Positions 35,390 through 56,289 of a DNA stretch of 64,000 nt are shown one piece after another. Origin of the DNA: Psococerastis gibbosa (lineage: Eukaryota > Arthropoda > Insecta > Psocodea > Psocidae). A program made the translations under genes and the position numbers. Location: contig OZ020488.1 of NCBI GenBank assembly GCA_963971405.1, positions 124,001 to 188,000 of the forward strand. The letters run 5' to 3'. Below the pieces are notes generated by a model. The model was not told where the DNA came from. It saw only the letters and a program-made list of their open reading frames with translations, and searched no databases. Every line of letters begins with the position of its first letter. Position 1 is the stretch's first letter.

Positions 35390-36225
35390 TCTGAACTTGG
35401 TGGGATTCGAGCGTACATTCTATGCCTTACCAAGGCATCGTTTTAATAGCTAGAACGCAAGCCCGGTCAAGTACAGAATTTACTAAAACCTCTACATATA
35501 ATACCATGCTCGCCGACATGATTCTCATTTGTTAGATATAAGGGGTATTCACTGCTTTTCGATTTCCCCAAGGGAAAGTATAGGAATAGAACTCCAGTTT
35601 TTCTACGGTAGAAAAATAATGCCATAAGGAAATTTATTTCAAAACATTCCCCCACTTTCCACAACTAGCCCTACTTGGTTGGGTAAACTGAGCTTGGGAA
35701 ATCGAAAACGCCAAACGGCCATTTTTGTTGTTGTTTTGCATTTGAATTTTGGTTTTATTTTTATTTAATTTTAAAAAAATGAGCTCTGCGACAGAAATTA
35801 ATAAAAAAAAGCAAACATATGGCAAGAGGTGGACTACAGCAGATGTTCGAAAGTTAAGTGAAGGCAAAGAAACTTTGGAAGTAGGTTAGGTTAGGTCGTG
35901 TAAAGTCAGAAACTTAGAGGTATACGTTTCCATGGCAAATATTTTTCTACCGTAGAAAAACTGGAGTTATATTCATACTTTCCCTTAGGCGGCAATTCCA
36001 CCGGCGAATTTACTTCATTTGCGATTAAATTCGCCGCTGGAATTGCCGCCAAAGGGAAATCGAAAGGCAGAGAATACCCCTAGTAGGTAGGTTAGCACCA
36101 GCTGTACTACCACCTAACCCAACAGGTCTGTGAGCTAACTTAAGGCAATGGCTTTTTCCATTATTGTAATTAAGACAATGCCCCGACAACATAATCGTGG
36201 GTTCGAATCCCGCCAAGTTCAGATT
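35390..36225. mobile_element. Nested fold-back elements with tRNA-like outer arms
   Basis: The outer arms CTGAACTTGGTGGGATTCGA (35,391) and TTCGAATCCCGCCAAGTTCA (36,202) face each other and resemble the T-arm end of a tRNA. Inside, GGGGTATTCACTGCTTTTCG..CAGTTTTTCTACGGTAGAAA (35,540-35,620) pairs with 35,940-36,085. Inside that, a 65-bp palindrome (35,986-36,050) begins TAGGCGGCAATTCCACCGGC. This is a three-level nest of insertions. Confidence 0.75.
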
Positions 36226-36612
36226 TTTTTATATTATGCTCTACATTAGTTTATGATACTCGTCATAAGTTTGGTGTATACAACAGCATGTTGTACGTAC
36301 CTAGTAGCCTGCATGAAAAGAATACGTTGATTTCATTAAATTCTTTTAATTTTCATTGATAAATATACACAAATACACACTAGAGACGGAATGGGGAAAA
36401 TATTCCCCAACATATAGGTCATCAATGAAGAATGGTTAAAATTAACATATACATGTACAGTACTGTAATCAGTGAGTATATGCCAAAATTGAATTTAAAT
36501 CCCATATGCACACACTAAAATATAATAAGCATCTCTAATTTCAATTTATGAAGGTTGGATATTTTTAATAATTCTAATATAAAAATACAAATTTAAGTTT
36601 GGTTTATCTCAC

Positions 36613-36781
36613 TAAGCGGCCCGATCTGACGATGGTACTTATCATTTAAGTGACGCTTATCTTGCTTTTAATCATTGAATCGGTTCACATAGGCTATAAC
36701 TACTACTACCGATTCAATAATAACAAATAATAAAATAAGCGTCACTTAAATTATAAGTATCAGTGGTCGGATCGGGCCTAA
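36613..36781. mobile_element. Palindromic MITE, GGCCCGATC ends
   Basis: Left AAGCGGCCCGATCTGAC..TTTAAGTGACGCTTAT and right ATAAGCGTCACTTAAA..GTCGGATCGGGCCTAA are inverted arms of ~50 bp around a 60-bp centre. No coding capacity. Confidence 0.75.
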
Positions 36782-36934
36782 ACCTATTAATAACACTTGA
36801 GTGTTCATCGATGTAAATATAGCTGCAAAAAAATTCATTCGACAAGAATACGAAAAATAGCTGTTTACTTATTTTATTTTATTTAAACAGAGTGATAGTG
36901 ACACAGTAATAGACAATTGTATATTCATTTTACA

Positions 36935-37085
36935 CATTTTTTTTTTTTTTTTTTTAAATATTTAAACGCGGGTCCCTGTTGGGAAATTGCGTTAGGAAGT
37001 TGGGGATGTTCACCTATTAATTTGTGGAAAGGGGTTATTCGCTCTGCAGTGTAAGTAGTGGGGGGGGGGGTGTAAATGTTGAAGA
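36935..37085 (-). mobile_element. 5'-truncated copy of the RNase H-bearing LINE (3' UTR only)
   Basis: A poly-T tract at 36,938-36,954 is followed by CGCGGGTCCCTGTTGGGAAA, the poly-G stretch and GTAAATGTTGAAGAA, matching 28,150-28,280. The copy is ~150 bp long and carries only the tail of the element. Confidence 0.85.
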
Positions 37086-37476
37086 AACATTTAACCACAA
37101 TTAACCACAAGGTACTCGTGCATCGATAAAGTACGGTTCTCGACAATTTAACCTAATTGAATTACAAATTAGTGATTACAAATTCGAGAGACAAAAATAG
37201 AAATTCAATTCAAAAGTAGGCCTAATGTTAAAAAAATGGTAGAATTGGGTATTACTACATAAATGATGTTAGCAGACAAAAAATTCGTTGACGGCCACAT
37301 CTCATGAGGAGACGTTTCGCTTGGCTTCTGGGGACGTTACGGCCCGTAAAAATACACATCTGTCCGTACCAGCCTGCTGTTATCACTAGGCACGGTACTA
37401 GTACATTGTACATCAATGGGAGGAAAGGCTTATAACAGCTTTTCAACGGTTTTAAACAAGTGTTGTTAAAACTTAC

Positions 37477-37563
37477 GCTGGTCCTCTTCAGAGGAATTCA
37501 CGTTGGCCCGTCCACTGGATACTTTACCGGTTCCTGATCACCCTGAGTTCACCAGTTTCAGAT
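37477..37563 (-). pseudogene. CadN: CadN-like exon: cytoplasmic tail, with in-frame TGA
   Basis: Acceptor TTTTATTTTTACAG and donor CAGC|GTAAGT. The first two bases complete the codon left by the 39,025 exon (N|D). It reads DLKLVNSG, TGA, then SGTGKVSSGRANVNSSEEDQ. The NDLK start and SSEED end resemble arthropod CadN tails as I recall them. The TGA either truncates the tail or is a real alternative end. Confidence 0.6.
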
Positions 37564-39024
37564 CTGTAAAAATAATATTCATTAAAATTAAATAAATAAT
37601 AAATAAATAAGATTTATTGTGTTGCCAACAGAGTTCAAATAAGACATCACTTACAGTAGAAACGTAAAACAATACTCGAGAAATACGCAGTCAAAATGAA
37701 AATTATGTCAAAGACCAAACAAGCGTAGGGCCTAAGCATAGTAGGCCTAGACTGTAAACTACCAGGGGCGTAATTTCAATATTTTTCAGGGGGGCAAGAT
37801 GACTAAGAGGCACATTTTTACAAAAGGTGAGCTCTTAAACTCGACCTGAAGGAAGCAACGGTTCTATTGTAGCTTCCCTAATCTCAGCTGGGGTGGGTTC
37901 CAGAGTACGGCAGATGGTAAAAGGCTTGTGAAACCTGTCAGGGCTGTGGAGAGGGATTTCAAGAAGGATTTCTGTTAGACAGCCTGTTTATGCTAGTTGC
38001 TAGTGGATATCAAAACGAACATTCACTGAAATACTGAAACATAGCGTTCTAACAAAATTGTTACCTAAAACAACAAAAATGTACAGACGAATTAATTAGA
38101 TTAGAAACAAGTTATGTATATAGATCGATAACTGAAGTTATGCTACTGACACTGGTGTAGACGCCCATTTAGAACTTGAGTAGGTCACCTCAAGGCCTTA
38201 TTAAACATCCGGACACCAAAAGGGGAATTGGATATAGAACACGCGTGAGTCAGGTGATATCCCTGCTCACTGATCACTGGAACGTAAGCCCTCACCTCAC
38301 CCAGATTGGTGTGCAAGTGGACAACAATCTGTGCCGATATTGTGCGATAGAGACCGAAAGTGGATGGCACATTCTCGCTGAGTATCATGTGATCTAGCGC
38401 CCCAGACTTGAGCATGCAGGGTGCACTGTTGCTAATGACGGTTGGGCTCCAGTAAGCCAATCTGCTGCCATAGCGAGATTCGCAGAAGCAATAGAACTCG
38501 ACTAGTGCGACTGGGGGACCTATCGACCCAAATTGAGGCCTGGGTCCCGACTCCATGATCGTACATACTATACTGTACATACAGCCTCAAGGCAAAGACA
38601 TGCTCAAATTCACACAGTAAACCTATTCACTATGTTGAGCGGTGTGATACTGACAGCTCAATGTGCCCTTTCATAAGGTTAATCTGTGTTCAGTATTCCC
38701 AGATTCTCATCAAAACGCCCCTCTATTCATAAAAATTCCTTTGTTTCTACAATTATCAACATTCTCCCTTTTCTTTCGACAAGTCAGGGCTTTCATTTCA
38801 CAAACCATACGCTACTAATATTGCAAAACAAAACGCTGGCGTAACTTTTGCACACTTTAAAAGATTATTAATTATAAAATTTCTAACACCCCCTGGTCAC
38901 TGGGGAAGACCACAGTCTACTGCTCTATCCGCAAAGCAACAAAGATGACTCTGTCGACACGAGAGCCGACCGGCCAAAAACGGGCGTAGGCTAACGTAAG
39001 AAGTCAGCAGTATAGTCTACTTAC
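37564..39024. other. Intron of the CadN-like gene, no coding sequence seen
   Basis: Contains GGGGCGTAATTTC..CAGGGGGGCAAGATG (37,765-37,800), which looks like one end of a G-rich fold-back element. The overlapping open frames at 38,176-38,580 (both strands) show no domain on the plus or minus reading that I can defend. Confidence 0.4.
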
Positions 39025-39277
39025 CATTCTTGATACTGTTTTCAGAAAAACTAGCTAACGGTATCGCCGACCAGGAGGGTTTGCCAGCGTCGACGTCGGC
39101 GGGGGGTTGGCAAGACCTGTTGAGGTTGCGCAGATAATCCGCTGGGAGCTCTGCCTCCAACTCGTCGCCCGCTGAGCCATAGCTCCGCAGCGAGTCCATG
39201 TTGTTGAGGGGGATGGGTGGATGGGGCTCGGAGGACGCCGTGTAGGAGGCGGGGCGCTGCGGCCCTGGGACTTCCCT
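39025..39277 (-). CDS. CadN: CadN-like exon: cytoplasmic tail
   Basis: Acceptor TTGTTTTTGTAG and donor AATG|GTAAGT. Reads REVPGPQRPASYTASSEP.. then LNNMDSLRSYGSAGDELE, LPADYLRNLN and KPSWSAIPLA. The LNN.D.LRSYGSAGDELE block is a signature of arthropod N-cadherin tails. Phase 0 entry joins the preceding exon (..NLEVSQ|REVPG). This exon is intact and GC-rich against an AT-rich background. Confidence 0.9.
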
Positions 39278-39883
39278 CTACAAAAACAACCAGTAAATGT
39301 TAACCAAGGATAATAAAATCAAATAGATGGCGCCTAACCGTAAGCTAACGAAAACGCACGGTATACCAGTTTTCCAATGGGCAAAAATGCACACGGAAAC
39401 AATACAAATAATGTCTGAAATCCATACGGTCGTTATACAGGCGCAGTGAAATCTGCGAAATTGACCTTGGGCTTTGACTCTTGGACTTATGAGACTAGGT
39501 ACCAACGTCTTTTGCCGCTTCATTGCATACGCTGTTGATGTCCGCAACCAGCTAGCCTGAAGCTTACAAGTTTGAAATTTGGCGACATTTTCCTCAGACT
39601 GTAATGATTGAGACAAAGCGTGGTTGAACATTGAGGAGCATGAATTTAAAAAGCGATTTGTCACAAAAAAAATTTTTGTTGGAATCACTGGAATCGTCGA
39701 TTGCTAAAACACATTTAATAAAAAGTCTAATTCGATTCCTATATTATAAAAGAATATTAAATAAAATATTACATCCCTTAATGTATTTTATTATTTTATA
39801 TAATTTAGATTCAGTTCTAAGTCTCCCCTACATTTACAGTTTCAAGTGGCAAATCGCCTTTAATTATAGACTTTTTACTTTTT

Positions 39884-40032
39884 TGTTCTATTACTAAGCC
39901 AACTAGAAAGACCCGGGACCACCTGCTTTACGTGCCCTCCGAAGCATTACCAGAAAATGCAGCAAGTGTGGGACTCGAACCAACAACCTTTCGGGTGAAA
40001 GTCGGAGTCTATACCACTACTCTACATGTCCT
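39884..40032 (-). repeat. tRNA-derived SINE, copy 3 (internally deleted)
   Basis: Same head as copy 1 (GGTTCGAGTCCCACAC on the minus strand, GGACATGTAGAGTAGTGGTA), but ~45 bp of the body between CCAACCCAG and AGGAAAGCCC are missing. Lies in a CadN intron. Confidence 0.8.
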
Positions 40033-40245
40033 TTTGTATGCAAGCCCCTCAATTAAGTTGTTCCGAAGGATAATATATTACCGTACCATTAAATAGTTAC
40101 TTCATTGCAAATACGTCATATTACTACAAATCTGTTTTTATACGCTAGATGTTAGACTTGTCAATTATTTTTCAAATAAACGGTTCGTTTCAATAAAATT
40201 GAGAGATGGTTTAAATAAATAACGAGTCTGTATGAGTTTTAAATT

Positions 40246-40414
40246 AAGTAACGGCTATTTCACCTGTCAATATTCCGTCAGTTATGCATCAATAATAAGT
40301 CTCTACCATATTATAAATTAACTTATAATAGTCTCCTTAAAACAAAAATCTCTTCAATTATTGATGCACAAATGACGGAATATTGAAAAGTGGAATAGCC
40401 GCCTTACCTATTAC
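40246..40414. mobile_element. Palindromic MITE, GGCGGCTATTCCAC ends
   Basis: The left arm ACGGCTATTTCACCTGTCAA..TATTCCGTCAGTTATGCATC is inverted at GATGCACAAATGACGGAATA..GTGGAATAGCCGCCTT. Related ends occur at 45,470 and at 35,986, so this is a family. The centre shares TATAATAGTCTCCTTAAAA with the 45.3-kb copy. Confidence 0.75.
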
Positions 40415-40765
40415 GTATGCGCACAAAACCTGCAGAAAGGAAATTATTGTAAATGAAAAACAATACCTATACCTATACAAAACGTTAAACAACTTCTTGT
40501 TAGCCTAGGTAAAAAAGGATTAAGAGCAACTTCGGTAAATAGGTGACACGCGGAAACCAAAAATTTAGATATTTTAGGCTAAAATTTAGGCTACAGAAAA
40601 ATGTTAGAGAAATCGACACACCATGCACTATTTTACATGACCTACATTTACTAAAAGACCATTTTCTTATGGTCACTGCTATACAATGAGCCTTGCCCTC
40701 AGTGTCAAATAATCGTCGGCGGCCCTGAAAATCACCCAATCTATTATTAATTTGCCTTAAAAAAA

Positions 40766-41075
40766 TTGGCATTGACATACTGCAATATACCCCTGAAAGG
40801 GCGTCGAATCCAATGGCAAGGTCATGTGCACCGAATGCAGGCGACGAGGACGCCGAAGCTGGTTTTGGAAGACCCCTTCAACCACCCTAGGCTGCCCGGT
40901 AGGCCAAGGCTCAGATGGATGGACCAAGTACTAGATGATGTGCACGCCACCGGCACCCGAGACTGGACGCTAGCGGCGGAAGATCGTCCGAGATGGCGTG
41001 GTGTAGTGGCAGCGGCCAAAAGTCCCCCCGGGCTGGATGCGCCTACCTTAGTCAAGTAAGTCACCCCTTTCTCTT
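40766..41075 (+). pseudogene. RTE-like LINE 3' end (truncated)
   Basis: The open frame reads RRIQWQGHVHRMQATRTP.., then RLPGRPRLRWMDQVLDDVHA, then AAEDRPRWRGVVAAAKSPPG and LDAPTLVK. This is the C-terminal tail of a LINE reverse transcriptase. It matches 49,076-49,340, including the end ..AAGTCAAGTAAGTCA, which marks the 3' terminus. Only the last ~100 codons are present. Confidence 0.8.
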
Positions 41076-41312
41076 TAAGGGACTCCCATATTGCAAATAA
41101 CTGAGTGACACAAAACGTAGCGCCAAGGAGAACCTACAAATTATTTTACGAAGACGAGGAAATATAAAATAAATACAAAATAGAGTGTTGACGAGTAGCC
41201 AGCCTTCTATAGCCAACCAAGATTGCAGCAGTCAGCAGCCAGGAGCTATAACGTCTTCAAAGTGTTGAGTAAATTAAGTAAGTTTTATGGGTAATAAAGT
41301 AAAAGTAAATAC

Positions 41313-42042
41313 CTGACTAACTTCTAAGTTGCTCAACTTGGAGCCCCGCTTGAAATCCACATCATGGGGCTTACACGTTGAATTCAAAACAATGTCTTTA
41401 CGCGTCTCATTATTTATATGGTTACCAGAGTGTCTCGACCGGCTGGTACGCACTTTACGAAATATAACAAAACATAACACCAACACAAGAATGACCACGA
41501 GAACGCCGACGATTCCGACCAGTTCCTCGAGAGTTAAATTATAAATGGAAGAAGAAATAGGGGCGGAATACAGAGGCGTAGCACAGAGGGGCCCACTGTA
41601 CGCCCCGCGACAGTGGCACGTGTACCCGCCAATGACATTGACGCAAGTGGCACCGTGTAAACAGGGTCCGCTAAGGCACTCGTCGAAATCGATCTCGCAC
41701 AACTGACCGGCGTAGCCGTTGCACTTGCAGATGGGCCCGTTGTCGCCCTCCTCACACTGGCCGCCATTGCGCCACGGGTTCGGGTTGCAGAACCGGCCGA
41801 ACTCGCAGCGAGACTCAGAGTCCCCGCGGGCAGACGCAGGTGTAGCCCTCGCCTTCAGGCTCTGGCTTGCAGATCCCTCCGTGAAGACAGGGCGACGACT
41901 CGCAAGGGTTCGTGTCGACCTCGCAGTGGTGCCCGGTGAAACGTTCGTGGCAGGAACATTCGTAGCCGTCATCTGGTAGTTGTCTGCAGGTGCCTCCGTT
42001 CTGGCACGGTTGTGTTCCGCAAGCTCCCTGTGATATAAGTAC
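41313..42042 (-). pseudogene. CadN: CadN-like exon: EGF domains, membrane segment, start of tail; frameshifted
   Basis: Acceptor TTTTTTTCCCAG and donor AGTCAG|GTATTT. Before the shift: CGTQPCQNGGTC.. and NPCESSPCLHGGIC... After it: CEFGRFCNPNP, EIDFDECLSGPCLHGATC, a ~23-residue hydrophobic membrane segment (TLEELVGIVGVLVV..), then basic RKVRTSRSRH and ETRKDIVLNST. Length is 730 nt; removing one G of the GGGG run (41,822-41,825) gives 243 whole codons. CNPNPWRNGG has Trp where an EGF cysteine is expected. Confidence 0.88.
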
Positions 42043-42442
42043 CTGGGAAAAAAATGTGTTGGTCTCACTCACATAATTTAAATACATATATGCATTTGAC
42101 AGTTAATGTGGTCTTATGGGCGGGCTATGACTATATATAAAAACCTCAAGAGCAGAATGGCAGTAAACTACACTAGCGATAGCTAAGATCCGGTATCGAT
42201 TGGAACCCCGGCGATACGTCAGATACCTATAAATCTTTGGAAGTGAGTTCAAAATTAGATTGTTTTCCCCAGGGAGTCTGTCGGGTCGCGATCGTCCGTG
42301 GGTAGCGGGACTATATCCCATGGTATGCGTAAGCTCGACATGCTCTTTTTCCATTGAAAACATTGCCAGCAATGGCTTCGGTGACGTTAAAGGCCTATAA
42401 AGCTAGGTTGAATGTCAATATGAGCAATAGAAAGGTACATAC

Positions 42443-42616
42443 CGTGGCCGGATTGCAGTTGAACTTAGTTGAATTTAGCCTCTTCATAGATACGACCGTG
42501 CTGGAGCCTGACTTGTGGAGCGGAACACTGACTTGCGCCATACTCACATCGTCCATGCACCCTATGAACCCTCATCGCAGGTCGTAGAATCCGATAATAG
42601 TCGGATGCTGATGTAC
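42443..42616 (-). pseudogene. CadN: CadN-like exon: end of laminin-G domain, with in-frame TGA
   Basis: Acceptor TTTCCTTCCAG and donor CACG|GTATGT. Reads VHQHPTIIGFYDLR, TGA (42,572-42,574), GFIGCMDDVSMAQVSVPL.., ending FNCNPAT. GFIGCMDD is the conserved C-terminal strand and cysteine of CadN laminin-G domains. The TGA sits between two conserved blocks, so it is a nonsense change rather than a wrong frame. Phases match both neighbours. Confidence 0.85.
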
Positions 42617-43540
42617 CTGGAAGGAAAGAAAAAGATAATATAGCCAAGATTGTTACCATTCTATGGAAAACACCTTAAGACGTGCCAGGCTCTCGTCAGT
42701 AGCAGAGGTTCACCAGATTATGTGTTGTGTTGGGCTGTAAGAAAGCTGATGGCGGAAGCCTTATGCTATGGTGTAATTTAAAAATAATAATAATAATAAT
42801 AATTTAGTGATGAACCTGTATTTTTTGTGCACTTCTAGGCAATAGCCGATTTTTGAAGTGCTCATTCTTATGGGAGGGTCTTGAAATCTGTATTGTTATC
42901 CTTTTTGCCTTTTGGTGACGCAAACTGTGGCTAAACTCGATGAAAATCATCTATTTATTTTTTCTTTTCTGTTTAGGGCCAACTCAATTTTGGGCGTTTA
43001 CCAGCCTAAAACTAAATTAAAATTCTACTACAATTATTTTTCAAAAACGACTCAAATTATTATTGTAGCCTATTATTTTTACTCTTTGTTCATTAAGAGG
43101 ATATGCTACGTAGAAAATTGGCACCTCAAAATTAAATAGGCTACTTTTCATTTTTTAACTTAATTAACTCAGCAAGTTATTAAAAATTTGGTTTGGTAGT
43201 TCTTCTAAAAATCCCAGAATACGCGAAATGTTAGTCCTGTCTGGTATTTATGAAAGAACTAAGGCACCAAAAATGTAATATTTCCTAATATATATGATGC
43301 ATGAAGTAGTCTTCTACAACTTCCATGAGCCAAGCCTTTATTGATTTGCTTTGTTAATTAAATAAAAAAATAAAAAGTCAATAAAAACAACAAATTTTGG
43401 GGTGCTCATTTTCTACATACATTTCCTCTTAAAGAAAGCAGCTGATATGGGTGATCTCCTTATCTAGAGAATAAGATATTGGAAACACACCAACAATTTC
43501 CAAGACTAATTTTAGGATAGAGAATAGACGGCAGACCCAC
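42617..43540. other. CadN intron with a diverged GCTTTCC-family fragment
   Basis: About 42,955-43,200 shares GGGCCAACTCAATTTTGGG and TTTTTCAAAAACGACTC with the GCTTTCC family. A TAATAATAATAATAATAAT microsatellite lies at 42,786-42,804. No exon seen. Confidence 0.5.
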
Positions 43541-43765
43541 CTCAGCACCAAAATAGAAAACGGCCGTCTGCACGTTGAGGACCTCGTTGATGCCTGGAGA
43601 CGACCCGTGGACGACGTGCTTACGGTCGACGACCCGCGCGGTGTTGCCTTCTCGCTCCAGCAGAATCTCGTGCCACTGCCCGTCCGAAACCAAGACACTG
43701 CTCACGCGCACAAGCCCCTCTCCCATGCCGAGGTCAAATCTGTATTGGACGACCCCATTCACGAT
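43541..43765 (-). CDS. CadN: CadN-like exon: laminin-G domain, middle
   Basis: Acceptor ATTCTTGCAG and donor GCTGAG|GTGGGT; 225 nt, 75 codons, open. Reads IVNGVVQYRFDLGMGEGL.., SDGQWHEILLEREGNTARV, KHVVHGSSPGINEVLNVQ and FYFGAE. The VQYRFDLG.GEG and DG.WH patterns are laminin-G hallmarks. Fits exactly between the 44,396 and 42,443 exons. Confidence 0.92.
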
Positions 43766-44039
43766 CTGCAAGAATTGACATTGACGACACATTAACAGCT
43801 GTTATTCTACTAATTATACCAATCACGAAGTACAGTTGGGAGACAGTCGGCACGAATAACAGACAAAACAGTGAAATCGTGGCTGAGATTAAGTTCACCG
43901 GAGCAGCCCGTCAAGACAAGAGGCAGGATTAGAAATTCGTTCGGGGTGGAAGAACCAATGGTTCGGAAAGAGATTGGATAACAGCAGGTGTATATGAGGA
44001 AATGACTGGAGGAAGAAGCATAGAGGGAACATGAAAAAA

Positions 44040-44230
44040 TATTGACTTTTTGTTCGAGGGTGAAGAAGAGTACGACCAATAATGAGACACAGAAACCAAA
44101 TTGGGGACATGTAAGAAGAGTGGGACTGGTACCAGAGGAAGTGTTGAATAACCAGAATGGAGGAAGCTCAAGTATCGCACCCGGCAACTGCAGCTGGATC
44201 AACTCATTTTCTCATACCAAGACGCCCTAG
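44040..44230 (+). pseudogene. LINE 3' remnant in CadN intron
   Basis: Shares AAGAGTGGGACTGGTACCAG and a WRKL..RT-like tail with 1,656-1,945, in broken frames. Confidence 0.4.
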
Positions 44231-44395
44231 ATGGAGTGCTGTGGAAGCGCCAATGCCATCGTACCACGACCTCCCGTAGGGGATAAGGTGCGGAATAAGT
44301 AAAAAGTAAACAGTATAAGTGCCTATTTGTAGTAAACTGTCCCTTCTTTTTTGTCTCTGGGCAAGTTGCGGAAGGATATTTTTACCTCTAAAATA

Positions 44396-44511
44396 CTGTA
44401 GTCTATCTTCCCAGCAGCATACATGAGATTTCCAGTTTGCTGGACAGTACGAATCCATAGTGACAGACTTAACCCCTCCTCAAAAACAGTCTTCCTCAGT
44501 CCTTTCTCCAC
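44396..44511 (-). CDS. CadN: CadN-like exon: laminin-G domain, start
   Basis: Acceptor TTTTGCTCTGCAG and donor TTAGAG|GTAAAA; 116 nt. Reads VEKGLRKTVFEEGLSLSLWI then RTVQQTGNLMYAAGKIDYSI. The SLSL.IRTVQ.TGNLMYAAGK block is typical of CadN laminin-G 1. The last codon is completed by the first bases of the next exon (LE|IVNG). Confidence 0.92.
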
Positions 44512-44862
44512 CTGCAGAGCAAAACCAAGAATGAGGCATATTCAGCGTAAAACTGACCATGAACAATTAATTTAACCGCAGTGGTAAATAATAGGTATTC
44601 CAGTTTTCTGAAATAAGGAAAATCATGGCGACAAAACATCTTCGACAATGGTTTACAATGGAACGACGTTTACAATCATCTTTACAGTGAATTCTTCAAT
44701 TTGCTAGCCAAGAATGTGCACTATATGAAGTTCCCAAAATAGAACACATTCTATTCAACGTAAGAGGGCTATTGCATTCAACAAAATTACAATATTGTAA
44801 TTTGTATCCTAAATTTTAGTAATCCTAGCTAGGCGTGATAATATGATATGACTTTTGCCTAC

Positions 44863-45082
44863 CTGATATTCAGCACAGCTGTTACCCATGAAGGAAATAG
44901 GGTTTCTACTGCCGTAGCAGCCTTCTCCAGAACACGTGTTCACAGCCACGTCGCACGTAGATCCCACGTGACCATCTCACACTGGCATGTGTAGCCCTGC
45001 TCAGACTGGTCGGGCACACAAATCCGGTTTCCGGTACAGGGGTTACGGGCACATTCATTGACTATCAGCTCGCAGTGATCTC
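44863..45082 (-). pseudogene. CadN: CadN-like exon: EGF-like domain with 1-nt deletion
   Basis: Acceptor TTATCGTTTCAG and donor TATCAG|GTAGGC. Reads GDHCELIVNECARNPCTGNR.., ending QGYTCQCE, then shifts frame and resumes GHVGSTCDVAVNTCSGEGC.. to SCAEYQ. Length is 220 nt where 221 would keep the frame. The shift lies between CQCE and GHVG (about 44,965-44,975), exactly inside the C.C..G..G..C end of the EGF fold. Confidence 0.88.
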
Positions 45083-45104
45083 CTGAAACGATAATAGACT
45101 AATT

Positions 45105-45300
45105 AAAATATAATATATAATATACATATATATATACATATATATATATGTAACCTTGCTCGTATGTCAATTTGTTCGTATCTCAAAGCAATTTTCCCCA
45201 TTGAAATTAATTGAAATGTCCCAAAAATGCTACCCCTAATTGTTTTTGTTATGTGTTTTTTTTTAAATAAAAAATATGTATTTATTTATATTTATTTATT
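45105..45300. repeat. AT-rich simple repeats
   Basis: ATATAC/ATAT microsatellite near 45,110-45,150 and a TTTA/TTTAT run at 45,280-45,310. No cadherin-coding sequence is seen from here to 45,901. Confidence 0.6.
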
Positions 45301-45309
45301 TATTTATTT

Positions 45310-45470
45310 TATTAATTAGACTCTGCCATATTATAACTTAATTTATAATAGATAAGTTAAGTATCTACATTATAGTCTCCTTAAAATATGGCAGAGTCTA
45401 ATTAATGATGTCTGCTACCACGTCATCCACATGCACATTGAAAATTGACGTCGGTGGAATAAGCGCCTTA
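45310..45470. mobile_element. Palindromic MITE, GGCGCTTATTCCACC end, left arm short
   Basis: ATTAATTAGACTCTGCCATA (45,311) is inverted at TATGGCAGAGTCTAATTAAT (45,386-45,405). The right side continues to GACGTCGGTGGAATAAGCGC..CTTA, the terminus shared with 40,414. The matching outer left arm is missing. Confidence 0.65.
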
Positions 45471-45714
45471 ATGAAGTGTTCCGAATTCTCGCAGTAGAAA
45501 ATAGACGGTGAAAATCAGATAAATCATCTGACGGAGAAACTATGAGTGCAGGCAAAACGGTGCCTGAAGTCACTACCAAGAAGTAAGCAGTAAGTAATCA
45601 TAAAACAAAAAATGTTCATTAGACAGTTCGAAGCAAAATACGTTTGACGCTACGAGTCATAGAGAAACTGGATGATTTTTGCACACTCGGATACCCTGAA
45701 TGAAATTTACCACT

Positions 45715-45850
45715 TCAGTCGCAATCTGTGGGTGCCTGATGGGCTAATGCCTGGGTTGAGTTACGAGTCACGTCTCCGATCACATGGCAAGTAAAGAGTC
45801 GCACAAGTATAAGCCCATGCGACGGAACACGTCAAGTTACTGATTTTAGA
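45715..45850 (-). repeat. SINE-like repeat with tRNA-like A box, diverged
   Basis: Shares GTTGAGTTACGA, TCCGATCACATG and AGAGTCGCACAAGTA with the family at 54,905 and 23,395. Confidence 0.55.
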
Positions 45851-45901
45851 TCATTCAGTACAGTGGGAGCGCAAATACGGTTTGGATGCTTGAATGCTCA
45901 C

Positions 45902-46219
45902 CTCGGACGATCTGAGACCCCTCTTCCAAATTCTCAGCAATGACAATTCTATAAGGCGTCGACTGAAACTGCGGCGCGTGGTCATTCTCATCAAGGGCAC
46001 TCAGCCCAACTTCCGCCATCGCTGAGAGCGGCGGACTTCCGACCGTTTCAGCCATTATCGCGATCACGTGACTATCCGTCTCCTCGCGGTCCAAAGGCCG
46101 TGCCAGCGTCACTTCGCCGGCCTCGTCAATGGTGAACTGTGGATTTTCGAGGTCACCAGACACTATCCGGAATGTCACTGATGCATTGCTCACCATCTTC
46201 ATTTTCGTGATTATAGAAC
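45902..46219 (-). CDS. CadN: CadN-like exon: cadherin repeat
   Basis: Acceptor CTCTCTTTCCAG and donor CCGAG|GTGAGC; 318 nt, open. Reads SIITKMKMVSNASVTFRIVS.., LARPLDREETDSHVIAIMAE, the Ca-binding DENDHAPQF, and starts the next repeat (PYRIVIAENLEEGSQIV). The split glycine codon joins 47,793 (PPG|S). The repeat it begins has no continuation in the next visible exon. Confidence 0.93.
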
Positions 46220-46592
46220 CTGGAAAGAGAGGTTTTTAATGGTGGTTAGAACTGTTTAAAACTGTGGTTAGAAAAGTCTGTGGCCAGTAAGCCACTAAAA
46301 TACACTACTGTTCTTGAAGTAGCAGAAGTTATTATTAAGACAGAGATTTCCAAATATTTTGTAAACAAACCAGGCTTGGGCATTTTTGACTAAACTAATT
46401 AATTTCTCGTTTCACTGCAGCAAAGATAAAACTATTGTTTTATGAAAAACTCGAAAAAATATAAGCTTTCTAAAAAGGCAGACTATGTACCGGCCCGATT
46501 ATATATTATAGTATTCTGTGGCCCGATTTACGACTGTTCTATAAAATCTGTTTAATGCACTTTATCACATTTCTCTAGATTAATAATAATTC

Positions 46593-46754
46593 TGCAGCCT
46601 GATCATGGCGATTATAATACCGGTATTTATTTATCCTGGTATTAAAAATGTAAACAAGATAATAAAGTGCTATTCAAAATTTTTTTTTTGTTTACATTTT
46701 TAATACCAGGGGATTAAATAAATGCCGGTATTATAATCGCCATGATCAGGCTGC
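46593..46754. mobile_element. Palindromic MITE, GCAGCCTGATCATGGCGATT ends
   Basis: The left arm GCAGCCTGATCATGGCGATT..ATAATACCGGTATTTATTTA is inverted at 46,684-46,754 (..CGCCATGATCAGGCTGCG). Arms ~65 bp, centre ~25 bp. The same ends cap the large fold-back at 48,712-50,310. Confidence 0.8.
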
Positions 46755-47110
46755 GGGTGCGAAAATGCAAATCTACTACGAAAGAAATTATTTCTTTTAT
46801 GCATTTTTCGTAAACAAAATTTTCTATCCTTGCGGCCGTGAATCAAAGAACTATTTTAGCCATTATTTTAAAAAAATATTTGGTAGCCTAATCTCCGCCT
46901 TAACTATTAAACTCTGCTAGTAAGAACATACCAAACAAATAGGTCCATTAGTATAAGTTCGAATGCCAACCCATGCGAACGTACATTAATATACACACTA
47001 ATTATTGTACCAGCAACAAAATTTACTTTTCAGCATCATAATTAAAGGCAACATTGAGAGCAAAGGTTGACCGCAACAGAACGCATGGAAATTTCAAGAG
47101 AACTGCCCAG

Positions 47111-47289
47111 CAAGGCCGTAGCCAGGATTTTTTTTTTTTTTGGGGGGGGGGTTAGAAATTTCATTGGGTGTTACATAGTGGTTTTTACTTTTCCTCTCAA
47201 AATCCGATTCGATCTAGTATCAAGCCATTTAATTTCGGGGGGGGGGGGGGGGTTGAACCCCCATGAAGCCCCCCTTGGCTACGGCCTTG
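47111..47289. mobile_element. G-rich hAT-like MITE with perfect 8-bp target duplication
   Basis: The ends CAAGGCCGTAGCCA and TGGCTACGGCCTTG are perfect inverted repeats. CTGCCCAG lies directly outside each end (47,103-47,110 and 47,290-47,297). Inside, poly-T then poly-G on the left, and a second poly-G run then ACCCCCATG on the right. A truncated relative lies at 54,468-54,605. Confidence 0.92.
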
Positions 47290-47792
47290 CTGCCCAGGAT
47301 CTGTAAAAATTGTTCGAAACTTGGCAGAAAACCAATCGAAGGAATGTAACTGAAGTGGAAAATATTGTTTAGTTTTAAACGAGATATCTATCGCCATGGC
47401 AAATGCAAAAGAGTTGCAGTTGAAAAGCAAAGATTTTGGTTTTAAGGTGTATTCCTGACCATTTTGGATAGGGCCATCAGTTGCAAATGGTTGTATCGTT
47501 TTACTTTCAACAACAAAACTAATGGCGGCAAATGAAGATCCAGCAGGCAGACTTGCCAACAGAACCGGCGCAGTAAGCTTCTGCACTTTATTATGACGAG
47601 AACCTTAAGCTGAATCTCAGTCACAACGTTTTGCCCCTTTTTATGCTACGGATGCTCACCTTACCCGCCTTAATTTATTCGTACACTTACAAAACCCCAT
47701 AATGCATAGAATTTTAGATATTACGTTGGTAGTAGTTCAAAACATTTGATATATGAACAACACTAACACTATCTTCAGATCAGGCTACGTAC

Positions 47793-48099
47793 CAGGAGGA
47801 GCACTTTCGGGCAGAAAGAACTTGTCGTCCCTCCTTTCAAACATAGGCGCCGCATCATCAGCCGCCATAACGTACACCTCCACGGGTAAATGCGTATGCC
47901 TGCTGGGCAATCCCTTGTCCGATGCCCGGACGAAAAACTGGAACACCTCTCCTTCATGTGGAGTTAGGTCTCCAACGACGTAGAGCCCGCCGCTTTGCTT
48001 GTGGATGCCGAAAAGTTGGATAGACGAAGACGGGGCGTCGAGAAGGGAATACTCGATTTCGGCATTGATGTCGTCGTCATCATCATCGGTAGCTTTCAC
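47793..48099 (-). CDS. CadN: CadN-like exon: cadherin repeat
   Basis: Acceptor TTGCGTTTCCAG and donor CCTG|GTACGT; 307 nt, open. Reads VKATDDDDDDINAEIEYSLL.., DLTPHEGEVFQFFVRASDKG, then DDAAPMFERRDDKFFLPESA. ATD.D and ASDKG..S are cadherin Ca-site motifs. The DDDDDD stretch is an Asp run coded by GAY repeats. Confidence 0.92.
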
Positions 48100-48711
48100 C
48101 TGGAAACGCAAAAGATGCCGTTAATAGAAATAAATGGATAATGCTATTGGAGCTAACAAACCATCCTGAAATCGGAAGATTTGAAGAGTTTAGTAATGAG
48201 CGCATTCAAAGGACCCGTCAGACAATCAGTCTCGTGAAACTGAACGGCTGCGCCCGCAACAAGAAGTTAGTCCAGTCCAGAGGGCCCAAATTGTGGCCTG
48301 GGTCCCGACTACAAGTTCATACTACTACTAGTCCAGTTCAGTCGGTAGAGAACTGGGCCATGAAATGGGAGATCAAGGTTGGAGATTCGATGTAAATGAA
48401 AATATTGTCCACCGGGAATTCGAGACTCGACATGGGAGGAAGCCATTTCGACCATCAAGCCATTTAGTATTAATTTATTCTTGGTGTTAAAAATGTAAAT
48501 AAAACCATTTTGAATAGCAGTTTCGATTTTGAAATTATGTTATTTACATATATAATTATAAAAATTATTATTATTATTAAAATTAAAAATAATCCCCATC
48601 ATGGTCGCCATAGCTGGAGACTTAATAGGTTTGATTAATGGTTAATACACCTTCTCAGGTAAGTTCGCATCATAAAAAAACTACATATACAAGAATTTTA
48701 TTTGCTGCAGA

Positions 48712-50310
48712 CCGATCATGGCGTATTCGTATTATTATAATACCGGGGTTAATATAATAGTATGTCACGTGATGGTATTAATTCAATTGCTTAAAATAAA
48801 TAAACAGTAAATTTCAGATTTTTTTAATTTTTGATGTTAGTAGGCCTAGGCCTAATTGCCGCGAGAGTGCAAAGCGCATAAAATTCAAATTGGGTCAATT
48901 GAAACAATTGGCCTTTGACTATATTTTTGATGAGTTTCTTAATTTTGTCTCCCTTAGATTTTAGACAAATTATTTATAGTTCTTAATATATTTCAAATTT
49001 AAATTTAAAACTTGTAGGGAGAAAAAATTAAGAAACTCACCAAAAATATAGCTGAAGATCATTCAATTGTTTAAATGACTTACTTGACTTAGGTTGGCGC
49101 GTCCAGCCCGGGGGGACTTTTGGCCGCTGCCACTACACCACGCCACCTCGGACGATCTTCCGCCGCTCGCTTCCAATCTCGGGTGCCGGTGGGGTGCATA
49201 TATCTCCGAGTACTTGGTCTCCCCATCTTAGTCTTGGCCTACCGGGACGCCTAGGGAGGTTGAAAGTACCTTCGAAAGCTAGCTTTGGCGCGACCTCTCC
49301 GCTTGCATACGGTGTACATGACCCAGCCATTGGATTCGACGCCCTTTTAGTTCTGATATTATGTTCGGAGAGTCAAATAGGGCATGTATTTCGGCATTGT
49401 GTCTAATCCTCCAGACACCGTTCTCCCATCTACCGCCGAAGATAATGCGAAGCATTTTTTTCCTGAAGACTCTTAATCTATGGGCGTCCTTAATGAAAAG
49501 TGTTTAGGCCTCACCTCCATACATTAGAACAGGCCGAATTAGGGTCTTGTACAGGCGAACCTCTGTAGTTCTAGACAGGAGTCGAGATCTAAATAGCGGT
49601 CGGACTTGAAAGAAAGTCACATTCGCAGCCTTGATACCTCCCCCATGCAGTTGTCACTTGTCATCACCGAGCCGAGGTATCTAAATTGCTGAACCGACTC
49701 GAAGCGGTCTACCTTCGCCTGGTAGACACTGGTTCTTCTTTGGACTATAAGGTGTTTTGTTTTGCCTATGTTAATCTTTAGTCCAACTAATCTAGCATCC
49801 TCCTCTATTGTCTTCACCAAGGCCACCACCTGTTCCTCGTCATGAGCCATAATGTTCAGGTCTTCAGCGTAAGCGAGGATTCTTATCTGACCGCCTATCT
49901 CAACCCCACCTGGCATTTCAGTAGCTCTCCTTACCACTTTCTCCAACACCAGATTAGAGAGACACGGCGAGAGCCCGTCCCCTTGTTTCACTCCCGATAT
50001 GACATCAAAGGGATCCGACAGGCTTCCCTCCGCCTTTACTCCAGCCCGCGACCCTCATGCATACCTGCACCATTTTCACTACCTTTTGGGGTATTCCCAT
50101 TTCTTCTAGGATCATCCCGCAAAGTTGTGACCGGTTTATAGAATTGTATGAATAGGCGCACAATTTGAATTATCTGAAATTTACTGTAGGCCTACTGTTA
50201 ATTTATATTTTAAACCATTGAATTAATACCATCACGTGACATGGTATTATATATCAACCCAGGTATATTATAATAATACAAAATCGCCATGATCGGGCAG
50301 CTGTAATTCA
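48712..50310. mobile_element. Large fold-back element holding an RTE-like insertion
   Basis: GCAGACCGATCATGGCGTAT..TCACGTGATGGTATTAATTC (48,712-48,830) is inverted at 50,150-50,310 (..GAATTAATACCATCACGTGA). The ends match the MITE at 46,593. Between the arms sit a smaller palindrome (48,893-49,075; TTTTTGATGAGTTTCTTAAT facing ATTAAGAAACTCACCAAAAA) and an RTE-like LINE fragment. Confidence 0.8.
49076..50145 (-). pseudogene. RTE-like LINE reverse transcriptase, 5'-truncated and broken
   Basis: On the minus strand: INRSQLCGMILEEMGIPQK.., GVKQGDGLSPCLSNLVLEKV, then the catalytic region AYAEDLNIM (Glu instead of the second Asp of YADD), GLKINIGKTKHLIV, RYLGSV. It ends with FNLPRRPGRPRLRWGDQVLG and the AAGTCAAGTAAGTC terminus. 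Frame breaks after ..EVSRLRM and elsewhere. It starts abruptly at the right arm of the fold-back, so it inserted there. Confidence 0.85.
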
Positions 50311-50955
50311 AAACTTACAAAACAATTTATGCTTACATATGATTTCTAGATGTTTGGTGATCCTGTCCAGCCGCCCAAGGGTTACCCAGCACCGTGACCA
50401 GAGATGGGTGTTATGAAAAATACTTTTATGGTATTTTCTTTCAAATATGTGCAATTATATGCAAGTTCCTCAGTCTTCGACTCTGCAATGAAGCAAGGCA
50501 CAATGTTAAGTGAAACGCTCTTATTACTTTACTAATAACTCGAATAGCTTTATTGTGGCTTTTTACGATAGCTCAGGATAAATAAATAAATAACTCACTA
50601 CAGGGGTGTATCGTAAAGGTTAAAGGGACTTCAAATAATTACGCTCCTGAAGGGCTATATAGGTATAAAGAGGAATATATATACATTTGAATATATGTGC
50701 TGTATGATATGGATCTGGCTAAACTTCTCATCCGAAAGTCGACGCCATACCGCTATACTGGACGCACGGCATAAGCTCGTTCAGCTACCGTAGCTTTTAT
50801 ATATTTATATTATTTTATATTATAGCAATTACCTGAGGATTTTTTCACACGCATGGGTATACTGCACAAGCAAAAGAAATTTAGCGAACATTTAGCCTAA
50901 AGTCCCATTGTGTGGCAAGCCCGCAGCCAGGATTTTTTTTCGGGGGTGGGTGTGG
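50311..50955. other. CadN-region intron, no gene seen
   Basis: CCGCAGCCAGGATTTTTTTTCGGGGGTGGG at ~50,919-50,948 is the left end of a G-rich fold-back element whose other end is not found. Confidence 0.45.
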
Positions 50956-52430
50956 TGACTGTGATGAAAAATGAAATGAAAAAACGACTTTATTGCAAAC
51001 AAAAGGCGAACAATAAGACTATAAAGTCTTGTTTTCATGCTAACCTTAAAAACTAAAAAAAAAACATTGTAGACTATGATAGGTCTACATTAATTAAAAT
51101 TAAATAGAGAAGAAGGAAACAGAGGAGTAGTGAAAAAAGAAGGATAAAAGGTATAGGGGGGGGGGGGGAGGAATCCATTGTCATCACCATTACAGGACCG
51201 GAGAGAGTCTATGCGTTATCTAAGATATACAGTTTAATTATTTTCTTACAGCTACTGAGTGAACTAGCTGCCCTGATCTCCAATGGTAGGCGGTTCCAGT
51301 GGCGAATCGAGTATAATACCGTAGATTGCCCATGTCTTGTGGTCTTATGTAGTAGTGGTATTTCATACGTTGTGCCATTGCGTTGTGACTGTAATTTTGT
51401 ATATTTTTGAATAATGTAGGAAGGTGCGTTTGAGTGGGTTACTTTATACATTAGCATCAGTGCATGTTCTTTGGTCGGCGGTTAGGAAATTTAGTATTTT
51501 GTACTGTGGGCTAATATGATCGCGACGCTTAGAGTTAAAAATAAATCGGATGCAACTGTTCATTGCCCTGTGCAAACGGCGTGACAGATAATCCGTGCGA
51601 CTGGATGATAATACAATACAATAATCAAATAGTGGGGTAATTAGCGTGGAAACAATGTTTTTCTTTATGTTAATTGGTAAAAAATTTCTAATTCTGTTCA
51701 AGGGATATAAACATTTATAAATTTTGCTACAGGTTTTGTTTACATGGACTGACCAGTTGAGTTGTGGGTCTAAATACACTCCTAGATTTTTCACACCTTC
51801 TTGTTTAAAGGGTATTACTTCACCGTTTAAGATAATGGTTGACCTTAAGGTATTTTGTAATTTTACGAAGGTATTGTGGCTGCCTATCAGCATTGCCTGA
51901 CTCTTAGTCGGGTTCAACTTGAGACCATGTTTTATGTACCATTTTAAGACGTTCTCTAAATCAGCATTAATATCAGCTATGGCCTGTTCGCAATTACTAG
52001 ACATGAAACTAGTATATAATTGAAAGTCGTCAGCATATACATGATAAGAACATTTGTTCAATGACTGTGACAATAAGTGGAGAAACACCAAGGGCTCAAA
52101 ATCGTACCCTGCATTAATCCGTTAGGGAGGTTACAGAACTCAGACGTTTGGTCGCCTATTCTCGTTGCTTGTTCTCTATTTTCTAAGAGCGAAACCAAGA
52201 AGTTGACTTATCAGCGAAGTTTAAAGATTTTAATTTGGCAAGGAAGATGTCATGTTTTACACATGAGAACGCGCTGGAGTAATCTAAAAGAATAATGCAG
52301 GATACGTCACCTCCGTCGTAGGCACAACTTAAATTATCAACCACTTGAATTAATGCTGATGTAGTGCTGTGGTTTTTCTTTAAACCGGATTGCAGGGGAT
52401 TAGCTAGATTATAACTAGCCATATAGCTCG
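50956..52430 (-). pseudogene. CR1/L2-like LINE reverse transcriptase, truncated and frameshifted
   Basis: Minus-strand pieces in order: LKKNHSTTSALIQVVDNL.., LLDYSSAFSCVKHDI (motif A; canonical D.S.AFD..), GTILSP, YADDFQLYTS (catalytic YADD), GLKLNPTKSQAMLIG, PLFDYCIVLSSS and WNRLPLEIRAASSLSSCKK. Frames change after about 52,183, 52,091 and 51,444. The C-terminal IRHWNRLP block is typical of the CR1/jockey-type tail. The 5' part including endonuclease is missing. Confidence 0.85.
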
Positions 52431-53739
52431 AAATGTGTGATCCTATTTATAGTGTAATTTTTTTAGAATTCAATTGTATTTAGTGTATTCTTTAGATTTT
52501 ATGTTGTTACTCGTTTATATGATAGCATAGGCACATCAAACGTCTATTTATTGGCTGATTTAGCTTCGGTGCGAACACAGGCTTATAATATTTTGCTGAT
52601 ATTTTCTTTAAATAAGCTTACACGTTTTTTAAAATCATTACAAGAGTATACTTCAAGCACGTGCTTGGTCGGCCTTGTGGTTAATCCGCCACTGTGTAAG
52701 CTTCTGATTCTCAACAAGCCGTTCACAAAACAATATTTCCATAGTCCTAGGCCAGGGATAATTACATAAGTTTCCCACTTACCAGGCGATCCCATCACTT
52801 TCGGCAGCAATGCAGGCTATCGTTCGTCCCAATCACAAAAAAACAAGAATTTGTGGTTCTTCAACAGACTCTTCAATGGATGTACATATGCCCGCTTTTG
52901 AAAATTGATGAACTACGGCCCATTCCTGAAAAAATGTATATATTATCACGCCTACAGCCTACATTGATTTTAATGCATAGTGTATTCCGCAGATATACAT
53001 TAGACCAGGGGTTCTGAAAGTGTGGGTCGCGGTGTGGTCTCGTCTGCCAGTTATACACTAGATAGAATTGAATTGAATGACAAGTTTTTTTTTTCAATTT
53101 AAGCCATATATATATTTTTTAAAGATTGACGAGAACCAATTCAATATTAAATAGAGTAGATCGCTAGACCAATGGGGGAATGCATTGGCCTAGGTGTTTC
53201 TTTGTACGTAGGTGGCAGCAGAATAAAGTAAATAAATAAAGCATTTTGCCTATCCTTCGAAAAATTTGCCTCGGGGGAGAGGGGGGTGGTAGTAAGGCGA
53301 GGTATCATATTTATTGGTCGCTGGATCCACCCCCTAGCTTGCCCCCCCCCCCTTACTCCTATTCCTGCGTACGCCTGTAAAGCTATTTTTTAGGAAGGAA
53401 ATATAAATAAACATTGCAATGTAGAATTTAGTGGGTCGCGATGCAATTTCAAATCATTTAGTGGTCCGCGACGAAAAAGTTTGAGATCCTCTGCATTAGA
53501 CTATAAAACTACAAAATAGGCTAACTCTCATTAACGCATGGTATTGCGACCCTTCGACCTATACAGTATAAATGAATAAATATGGATTTAATACCAAGTC
53601 AACTGATAATACCTTAAGGAGGTTTGTTTCCTTTTAGGCGTTCTGGATATATAGCCTAGATACCATCAAGCGCGGTAAGTGGTTACAGAGCAGCATCCTA
53701 GTAATGTAGCCTACTACTAGGCTATTCTTCTAAACTTAC
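52431..53739. other. Intron, no exon seen
   Basis: Contains a facing G-run (53,275-53,290) and C-run (53,342-53,352) that look like the inside of a G-rich fold-back element, and AGGGGTTCTGAAAGTGTGGG (53,008), which resembles one end of the CAGGGGTTCCCAAAC hAT family. Confidence 0.45.
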
Positions 53740-53814
53740 CTCAGTGTTGAGACGTGATAATATGGTGTCATTGTCGAAGCTGAAGGTGTCTCCAGCATGG
53801 ATTATTTCGGCAGG
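53740..53814 (-). CDS. CadN: Candidate CadN-like exon, 75 nt
   Basis: Donor CTGAG|GTAAGT is strong; acceptor ACAATAG is weak. The frame reads PAEIIHAGDTFSFDNDTIL.. and ends RLNTE. Phase 0 exit joins the 48,099 exon as RLNTE|VKATDDD, which is a natural cadherin strand (..V.ATD.D). Short and supported mainly by phase and fit. Confidence 0.45.
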
Positions 53815-54467
53815 CTATTGTCTATTCTGTAAAACCGGTGCAAATAGGCCTAGGTACTTGGCCAATCTCGGTCTGCATATAGGAGCTTTCGTTGCTGCTT
53901 GCTAATCTGACACGTCATGTACCACGGCACTCTCACATGAAGCTAAAAAAAAATCAATAGGATTTCAAGAAATTCGATCCAACAATTTCATAAAGAGGAA
54001 ACTTAACAAATTTTTGAAAAACAGCATGACATCTCTCGTCCTCGTTCCACGGTTTCTATACTGGCAAACTCACACTTTGAAGACCACATGAAATAAATAA
54101 ACTTTGATAATGCACAATTCATTTTTTCTTCTTCAAAAACTTGTATGAATTATTTTTTACCTGCAAAATATTAAAATTTGAAAGGAAGAAGTAGACGATG
54201 CAATCAAGAAATAGGACTCACCCTATTGAATTTTATACATTTTATTCAAGACAGACTGCTTGACAAAATCAATTGTGTATTATCACAGCTTATATACTTT
54301 ATAGGAGGGATTCAGTTTTTTTTTTTTTTTTGCCAGTATCCAACACACTTACTTAATCCGGCTTTGACGCTAAGGCCCGTGAAGGGCTTATCTATCTGTA
54401 CTTTTCCTGAACATTGTATTTTTGTTGTTGATGAATATAGAAGATTTTCGACAGGTAACGCCACCCA
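53815..54467. other. No further CadN exon seen
   Basis: AT-rich; a poly-T run at 54,317-54,332. Most of the CadN ectodomain is therefore not upstream in this window. Confidence 0.45.
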
Positions 54468-54605
54468 AGGCCGTAGCCTCCCCCCCCCCCCCCCCCCCCG
54501 AAACGAAATAGCTTGACAGAATAGATAGAATCGGATTTGAAGAGGAAAAATAAAAACTACTATGTAAGACAGACAAAAAAAAAATATCCAATGAAATTTC
54601 TAAAA
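54468..54605 (-). mobile_element. Truncated G-rich hAT-like MITE
   Basis: One end, CAAGGCCGTAGCCTCC plus poly-C, and the inner AATAGATAGAATCGGATTTG..AAAATATCCAATGAAATTTC, match the 47,111 element in reverse. The other terminus is missing. Confidence 0.75.
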
Positions 54606-54904
54606 AATGTACAATATAAAAGAGCGAGCGATCCGAATGACCAACAAGAGAAGCGGAAAAATTGTTTTGTAAGCGGTATGATCCCCCATAATTAGTTATA
54701 GTCATTATTTGTAGTCATAATTGTTATCGTATACTTTTAATAATTTTAATGTTTAATAGACAGTAGACACCTCGGTTTCCTCTATACTATAGGCTGTCTG
54801 ACGTCGGGCCAGACGGCTGCACGCCCATTCTAAGTTTATACAATACTCGAAAGAGACGCGAACAGGCGTGCTTAAGTACCTAAATTTGTATTGTTTTTAA
54901 GGAC

Positions 54905-55060
54905 TTATGGCATAGTGGTAGCTTGTTCGTACTTGTGCGAGTCTCTACACATCATGCGATCGGTGACCTGTCGTAACTCAACACAGGTATTATCTACAGA
55001 GGCGACTGAAGAGGTTATTCGGATACATTCATTGAATTCTTTGTAAGCGAACAATCTTTA
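54905..55060 (+). repeat. SINE-like repeat with tRNA-like A box, best copy
   Basis: Head TGGCATAGTGGTAGCTTGTT contains a near-perfect pol III A box (TGGCATAGTGG). It continues GTGCGAGTCTCTACACATCA, TGCGATCGGTGACCTGTCGT and GGCGACTGAAGAGGTTATTC. The B box is weak or lost. Five copies occur in the window. Confidence 0.7.
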
Positions 55061-55574
55061 TTAATAAAAAAAAGAAAAAAAAGCGGTTGTATGTCCATAC
55101 TATGTGGAATGTGACTCTTACAAACGCGATATCTCAGAAATGCACCTTCAGAAGAAATAAAAATTGACACCTTTTTTGGTTGAGAATTTTAAGATCTACA
55201 ACTTTAGTACAAGTTTTTGATAACACTTACCGTTTTCGAGAAGAACTAAAAGGAAAACTGAAATTGTTACCTTTGACCCCGAACAACTTTTTTTAGCACA
55301 CATGGGATCGATGGGGACTTTTGACATTTTTATTTATAATGGTAAACCCAAGGTCTGTTCCAAAAATTGACCCTGACGGAATTTTTGTTATTTGAAATGT
55401 CCAAATTGACTGGGCTGGTTTTTTATAACTTTAAGTAGGTAATGACTATGCGAATTCAGCTACATCCTATGCTCAGGCATTTGGTATCAGTCTAGTTAAG
55501 CTACCATGTTGGGTGAAAATGCATTTTAAGTGGAAGGCAAACGGTCCATGTGCAAGATAATTTATTAAGCAAGG

Positions 55575-56140: not shown

Positions 56141-56289
56141 AAAGTTATTTTATTAGGGGTAGCTTCACTAGACATTTACCCTTTAACCACAGTAATTGGA
56201 TGAGTGAGGGAAGCTAAGTAGGTAGCCTACCTAGCCCGCTAATCTCAGTTGCTCGCAATCTCATTGCAACTCGATCGTGACTCGGTTAG

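Follow-up and report, generated by a model that had tools for sequence, protein, structure and literature searches.

What has become of an N-cadherin (CadN)-like gene that retains its introns and carries stop codons and frame breaks in its exons? The question is raised by a 64,000-nt stretch of the Psococerastis gibbosa genome (assembly GCA_963971405.1, contig OZ020488.1, positions 124,001 to 188,000), here called the window, which corresponds to C13:124,001-188,000 in a 409-Mb arthropod assembly of 68 contigs. Judged from sequence, the gene in the window is very probably a partial, unprocessed pseudogene of CadN, a nerve-cell adhesion gene, that travelled within a recent interspersed segmental duplication. 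Retained introns and disabling lesions are combined in it, an open homologous gene lies elsewhere in the assembly, and 11 of 12 broken copies sit in a block of roughly 100 kb, on seven large contigs. The window copy is not expected to encode a functional protein.

The CadN exons and their open counterpart

The genome was searched with exon e41, which returned 13 loci with amino-acid identities of 91-100% (C3 being split over two rows). Beyond these the next match by E-value had 41% identity, and every lower row had 50% or less. At C14:14.603 Mb, all seven exons from e45 to e37 are open with intact splice sites, and open matches to e48 and e46 lie upstream. This open gene spans C14:14.60-14.63 Mb, every exon tested in it is open, and at least 14 Pfam Cadherin hits fall at C14:14.610-14.627 Mb (among the best 150 hits listed). 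It was taken as the parent of the other 12 loci, referred to as duplicates, and it supplies the intact CadN for which a preliminary description of the window had proposed to search.

In the window itself nine minus-strand exons were recognised, every one bordered by AG and GT, with a cadherin-type frame that is open except at lesions. The exons and one intron are listed from 5' to 3'.

48,099-47,793, minus strand: e48, cadherin-repeat exon, open; homologue at C14:14,619,426-14,619,749
46,219-45,902, minus strand: e46, cadherin-repeat exon, open; homologue at C14:14,616,482-14,616,802
45083..45901, minus strand: intron between e46 and e45, 819 bp; its counterpart in the open gene is 9.38 kb with 7 Pfam Cadherin hits
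45,082-44,863, minus strand: e45, EGF exon; frame break at ~44,978 (11/12 duplicates)
44,511-44,386, minus strand: e44, start of the Laminin G domain, open
43,765-43,541, minus strand: e43, Laminin G exon; 3-nt in-frame loss at ~43,633
42,616-42,443, minus strand: e42, Laminin G exon; TGA at 42,574-42,572 (12/12 duplicates)
42,042-41,313, minus strand: e41, EGF repeats, transmembrane and juxtamembrane parts; net 2-nt loss at ~41,816 (7/12 duplicates), Trp at 41,774-41,772 (1/12)
39,277-39,025, minus strand: e39, cytoplasmic exon, open
37,563-37,477, minus strand: e37, cytoplasmic exon; TGA at 37,540-37,538 (12/12 duplicates)

Most of the lesions that had been reported were confirmed. The TGAs at 42,572 and 37,538 are both in frame, are present in all 12 duplicates and are missing from the parent. 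The deletion placed near 44,970 corresponds to a 1-nt loss at ~44,978 relative to the open copy; e45 is a single open stretch in the parent and in the C14:11.13 copy only and is broken in the other 11 (determined from DNA for the window and five fetched copies, and from peptide matches for the remaining copies). An extra G described at 41,822-41,825 proved to be a net 2-nt loss at ~41,816, judged against the six of 13 loci that are open there. This loss is carried by C13, C2, C19, C3, two copies on C12 and C14:11.5, with one further 1-nt loss in e41 of the C3 copy. The Cys-to-Trp change in an EGF domain was recovered and is private to the window copy among the 12. With two TGAs and two frame breaks, the window exons hold no continuous open reading frame. 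Sequencing error was ruled out as the source of the lesions because four of the five recur at seven to 12 independent loci, and most lesions are probably older than the dispersal of the copies.

A difference of another kind was noted at window 42466-42472 (e42 positions 145-151), where the parent and C15:34.8 differ from the other 11 duplicates at six of seven adjacent bases, as if by a single event or conversion. Exon e45 was also considered as two EGF exons fused by a 6.1-kb deletion; this was ruled out, since e45 of the parent is uninterrupted and the 6.1 kb is a long terminal repeat (LTR) element. That element lies at the same site within e45 in C14:11.5 and C15:34.8, with a 4-bp target-site overlap and 234-bp LTRs that are 100% and 99.1% alike in the two fetched copies, and, judging from peptide matches, the two C12 copies seem to carry it as well.

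The duplicates have also lost coding sequence. Exons e46 and e45 are separated by 9.38 kb in the parent, by 3.8 kb in the C14:11.13 copy and by 0.82-0.94 kb in the other 11, and 7 of the 14 Cadherin hits of the parent fall in this interval, a block that is gone from the window copy. The copy at C14:11.11-11.13 Mb has seven Cadherin hits together with the CadN 3' half and the open e45. The earlier proposal of a decaying CadN duplicate is thus upheld by the open paralogue and by the recurring lesions, and it is incomplete in that it included neither the dispersal nor the loss of the cadherin-repeat block.

Pfam matches above the cut-offs were obtained from the exon peptides for Cadherin (e48 and e46), Laminin G (e45-e42 joined, with X at the lesions) and EGF (e41); the EGF domain of e45 scored below the cut-off. 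Cadherin repeats are followed by EGF and Laminin G domains and a transmembrane segment, as expected of a CadN descendant, and the window copy keeps the order EGF, Laminin G, EGF repeats, transmembrane, cytoplasmic (the transmembrane segment was called by reading the sequence, with no prediction tool). Descent from CadN rather than from another classical cadherin would follow from this domain order and from the cytoplasmic tail, which presumably resembles that of fly CadN. A search of solved structures gave only general cadherin matches among the best 60 of 151, and Rfam gave no match at gathering thresholds. Cadherin_C (PF01049) had no Pfam match in the cytoplasmic exon peptides of the window copy. 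A simple motif scan of the window turned up no catenin-binding terminal exon (weak evidence), and no alternative partner of the transmembrane exon was noticed there. The idea that some exons are mutually exclusive, each with an intact partner nearby in the window, was rejected: the genome searches made with e48, e46, e45, e41, e39 and e37 list no second window copy of any of them (the weak e41 rows in the window are e41 itself).

The exon order, phases and splice sites had been described as those of an arthropod CadN. This holds for the nine exons and their AG and GT borders; they are not the full CadN set, and there is no support for the most 5' exon of that model, at 53,814-53,740, as a part of it. 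A search with its peptide gave no match at the open gene, and joining it to e48 adds just 1 Pfam bit. Elsewhere on C14, further Cadherin hits are clustered at 34.571-34.583 Mb, and the EGF and transmembrane exon has a weak match near them; this is possibly a second classical cadherin gene.

Extent and placement of the duplicated block

Five other copies were fetched at 40 kb each, and all of them align along the fetched length to the window, or past its right end to one another, except for insertions. The pieces aligned to the window have 96.9-99.8% identity (pieces >400 bp, kept at >94%). The block was then traced with peptide probes built from non-coding DNA, for which the best candidates were scored, so that absence among the matches listed is weak evidence. 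Three features of the window relate to the block and its repeats.

1..64000, no strand: the whole window, inside the duplicated block; outermost probes 81-155 kb apart at 11 loci
53,814-53,740, minus strand: most 5' exon of the preliminary description, a dispersed repeat not found at the open gene
36798..36887, no strand: scrap of a satellite of roughly 170 bp, just past the 3' end of the CadN piece

A probe from window 495-614 was matched in nine of the 11 blocks, and also at C20 and C3:10.50 Mb (89%); it is absent at C15:34.8, where the contig ends, and, among the matches listed, at C14:11.5, where the block goes as far as the probe at window 3.97 kb or beyond. To the right, a probe 3 kb past the window end was found in all 11 blocks and in many other places (a repeat), and one at C13:205 kb in all 11. 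The probe at C13:230 kb was found in eight, the two C12 copies and C14:11.5 being without it among the matches listed. Both outermost probes occur in seven of the 11 blocks, 105-155 kb apart in the coordinates of each block. The C15:34.8 block measures 102 kb to the contig end, and the C12 copies and C14:11.5 measure 81-85 kb (all spans were calculated by hand). Near its right end, the C2 block is ~50 kb longer than that of C13. At the left, the C13 block seemingly starts between 116.3 and 124.5 kb: a C13 sample at 116 kb is a common repeat that is not near other blocks among the matches listed, and samples at 1, 60 and 105 kb consist of the satellite of roughly 170 bp. The peptide of the supposed 5' exon at 53,814-53,740 is present in all 11 blocks and at five other loci (C12:18.68, C12:21.06, C15:17.04, C13:10.68 and C13:38.60 Mb). 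At C14:11.11-11.13 Mb, the only flanking probe among the matches listed is that from window 36.2 kb.

The block is longer than 1 kb, more than 90% identical between copies, non-tandem and spread over several chromosomes, as in interspersed segmental duplications. A giant mobile element of ~100 kb, with defined ends and its own enzymes, that captured part of CadN would also account for a long collinear unit that recurs at 11 loci and has diverged little. This is improbable, however, since the right ends seem to differ between copies, which favours segmental duplication over a giant transposon with fixed ends (three of the 11 blocks were those without the C13:230 kb probe). Partial copies of the block also exist, and the 3 of 10 window open reading frames with Pfam matches (window frames only) gave RNase H, reverse transcriptase and, below the cut-off, DDE.

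Copies of the right part of the block that are without the CadN piece were observed at C15:17.03 Mb, C13:10.69 Mb, C12:18.65 Mb, C12:21.05 Mb and C56, the less similar of which are perhaps older. A repeat family of ~750 bp, ~82-90% alike and in both orientations, was found at window 10162-10884, 57841-58702, 59305-59959 and 60220-60773, and it recurs in the right-hand extension of the block. The open frames of a long interspersed nuclear element (LINE) in the window had been used as a control of sequence quality; the LINE is itself split by a 1,573-bp insertion at 29,305-30,877. The insertion is shared by the window and the C2 copy and is absent from C19, C14:11.5 and C14:1.28 (the C15:34.8 stretch does not reach there).

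Six of the 11 blocks start within 1.5 Mb of a contig end, against an expectation of 6.5% (eight contigs with lengths; binomial P 2.6e-5). This value is a guide only, as the limit of 1.5 Mb was chosen after the positions had been seen and the blocks are one family and non-independent. C3 starts with TTAGG repeats, a telomere repeat in keeping with an arthropod; C13 and C14 start with satellite, so the contig ends are not all telomeres.

Divergence and possible exchange among the copies

Over 3.5 kb compared at all 13 loci, the duplicates are 0.03-0.60% apart, and the parent is 1.84-2.22% from them. In e42 and e41, the parent and the duplicates are separated by ten fixed differences, nine of them at third codon positions (P 0.0004 vs one third), and much of the divergence between parent and copies therefore arose under constraint. 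It follows that the 2% does not represent the age of the pseudogene.

Among the duplicates, 17 of 904 exon sites and 28 of 2575 intron sites vary (P 0.09, with the six-base cluster of one copy counted), and third positions account for 7 of 11 coding changes when this cluster and the indels are set aside (P 0.04). The latter, mild excess and the retained domain order could speak for a functional, reduced second N-cadherin similar to fly CadN2, and an expansion of N-cadherin has been reported in Anopheles gambiae (according to an excerpt of PMC2447487). Such a function is scarcely credible in view of the two TGAs in all 12 copies and the frame break in 11, and exon variation is not below intron variation. 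A role at the RNA level was also considered, in which the dispersed copies would yield non-coding RNA (e.g. antisense or small RNA) with an effect on the open CadN. The CadN 3' half is present in 12 near-identical copies with introns, which could supply such RNA; this is nevertheless very unlikely, as the sequence does not require it and the copies are without exon constraint.

The small distances between copies also bear on the assembly. Unpurged haplotypes or misplaced repeats could have multiplied one duplicate, or base errors could have produced the lesions; some copies are just 0.03-0.1% apart, and the comparison of copies covers the inside of the block. Against this stand the seven large contigs, the identical lesions at seven to 12 loci, and the single-nucleotide polymorphisms (SNPs), insertions and LTR elements of some copies that are missing in others compared, so that an artefact of this kind is a quite improbable explanation. 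The blocks at C12:19.09-19.18 and 20.36-20.44 Mb differ by 0.03% over 3.5 kb, and the offset between them is nearly constant at ~1.267 Mb, which suggests a larger local duplication or an assembly duplication for this pair.

The four-gamete test was failed by 4 of 55 SNP pairs among the copies. The LTR insertion occurs without the e41 loss in C15:34.8, and the e41 loss occurs without the insertion in C13, C2, C19 and C3. Such conflicting shared markers suggest that the copies exchanged sequence or underwent conversion.

Proposed course of dispersal and relation to known systems

The partial pseudogene within a segmental duplication would have formed in several steps. A CadN duplicate would first have arisen on C14 near 11.1 Mb, a site proposed because the copy there keeps more cadherin exons and an open e45. 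The early duplicate would have gained the two TGAs and lost the internal block, and its 3' half would have become embedded in repeat- and satellite-rich DNA. Through DNA-level duplication and ectopic exchange, copies of the composite block may then have reached chromosome ends and further sites.

Several points weigh against this account. The mode of spread is inferred from sequence inside the block. Very similar copies, e.g. the two on C12, might partly be assembly artefacts, and the direction from parent to copy was deduced from the lesions. Much of the divergence between parent and copies arose under constraint and may be allelic or older than the decay; the third-position excess among the duplicates is a slight point against free drift; and 5 of the 11 blocks start away from contig ends.

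A bolder version, in which a self-propagating block of ~100 kb was seeded on C14 by a broken cadherin fragment and satellite-rich DNA and is still copying between chromosome ends, is unlikely. If true, it would be comparable to the mosaic duplication blocks of apes, in an insect-sized genome.

Long interspersed duplications with partial unprocessed pseudogenes are best described in primates. The human NF1 pseudogenes may be an analogous case, which the literature search did not confirm, and no published report of the present case was found among the matches listed in the literature searches. For PKD1, an excerpt of PMC2564946 gives six pseudogenes in human and in chimpanzee, which it ascribes to recent duplicative transposition and further amplification. 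Like the CadN copies, they comprise several copies of one master gene with signs of gene conversion; in human, the PKD1 copies share a chromosome arm with the master gene, whereas the CadN copies lie on seven contigs, in a block of roughly 100 kb and in an arthropod.

The window copy had been likened to the reduced CadN2 of flies. Both are a second N-cadherin-like sequence in a genome, and the likeness goes no further. Fly CadN2 contributes to synaptic targeting and is a neighbour of CadN, as one small deletion takes out both CadN2 and the first half of CadN (an excerpt of PMC3340374). The window copy, in contrast to this adjacent and functional gene, is neither beside CadN nor coding; it is on a different contig from the open gene and is a broken, truncated and dispersed remnant. 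Arthropod N-cadherin has 16 cadherin repeats, with a single ortholog in mosquito, silkworm, beetle, honeybee and water flea, and the honeybee gene is also without an alternative pair of transmembrane exons (as given in part of PMC2655722). The gene described there combines cadherin repeats with an EGF-CA and transmembrane exon and a cytoplasmic tail, all of which the window copy has in a truncated and broken form.

Dispersed partial pseudogenes are of a known kind, as the PKD1 copies of apes illustrate, and size, copy number and host make the CadN series noteworthy. Within a single assembly, the series runs from the open gene through an early copy to near-identical daughters with shared lesions, so that the order of decay and dispersal is largely readable within one genome. 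In this species, 12 near-identical broken copies would mislead counts of cadherin exons, variant calls in CadN and the design of CadN probes.

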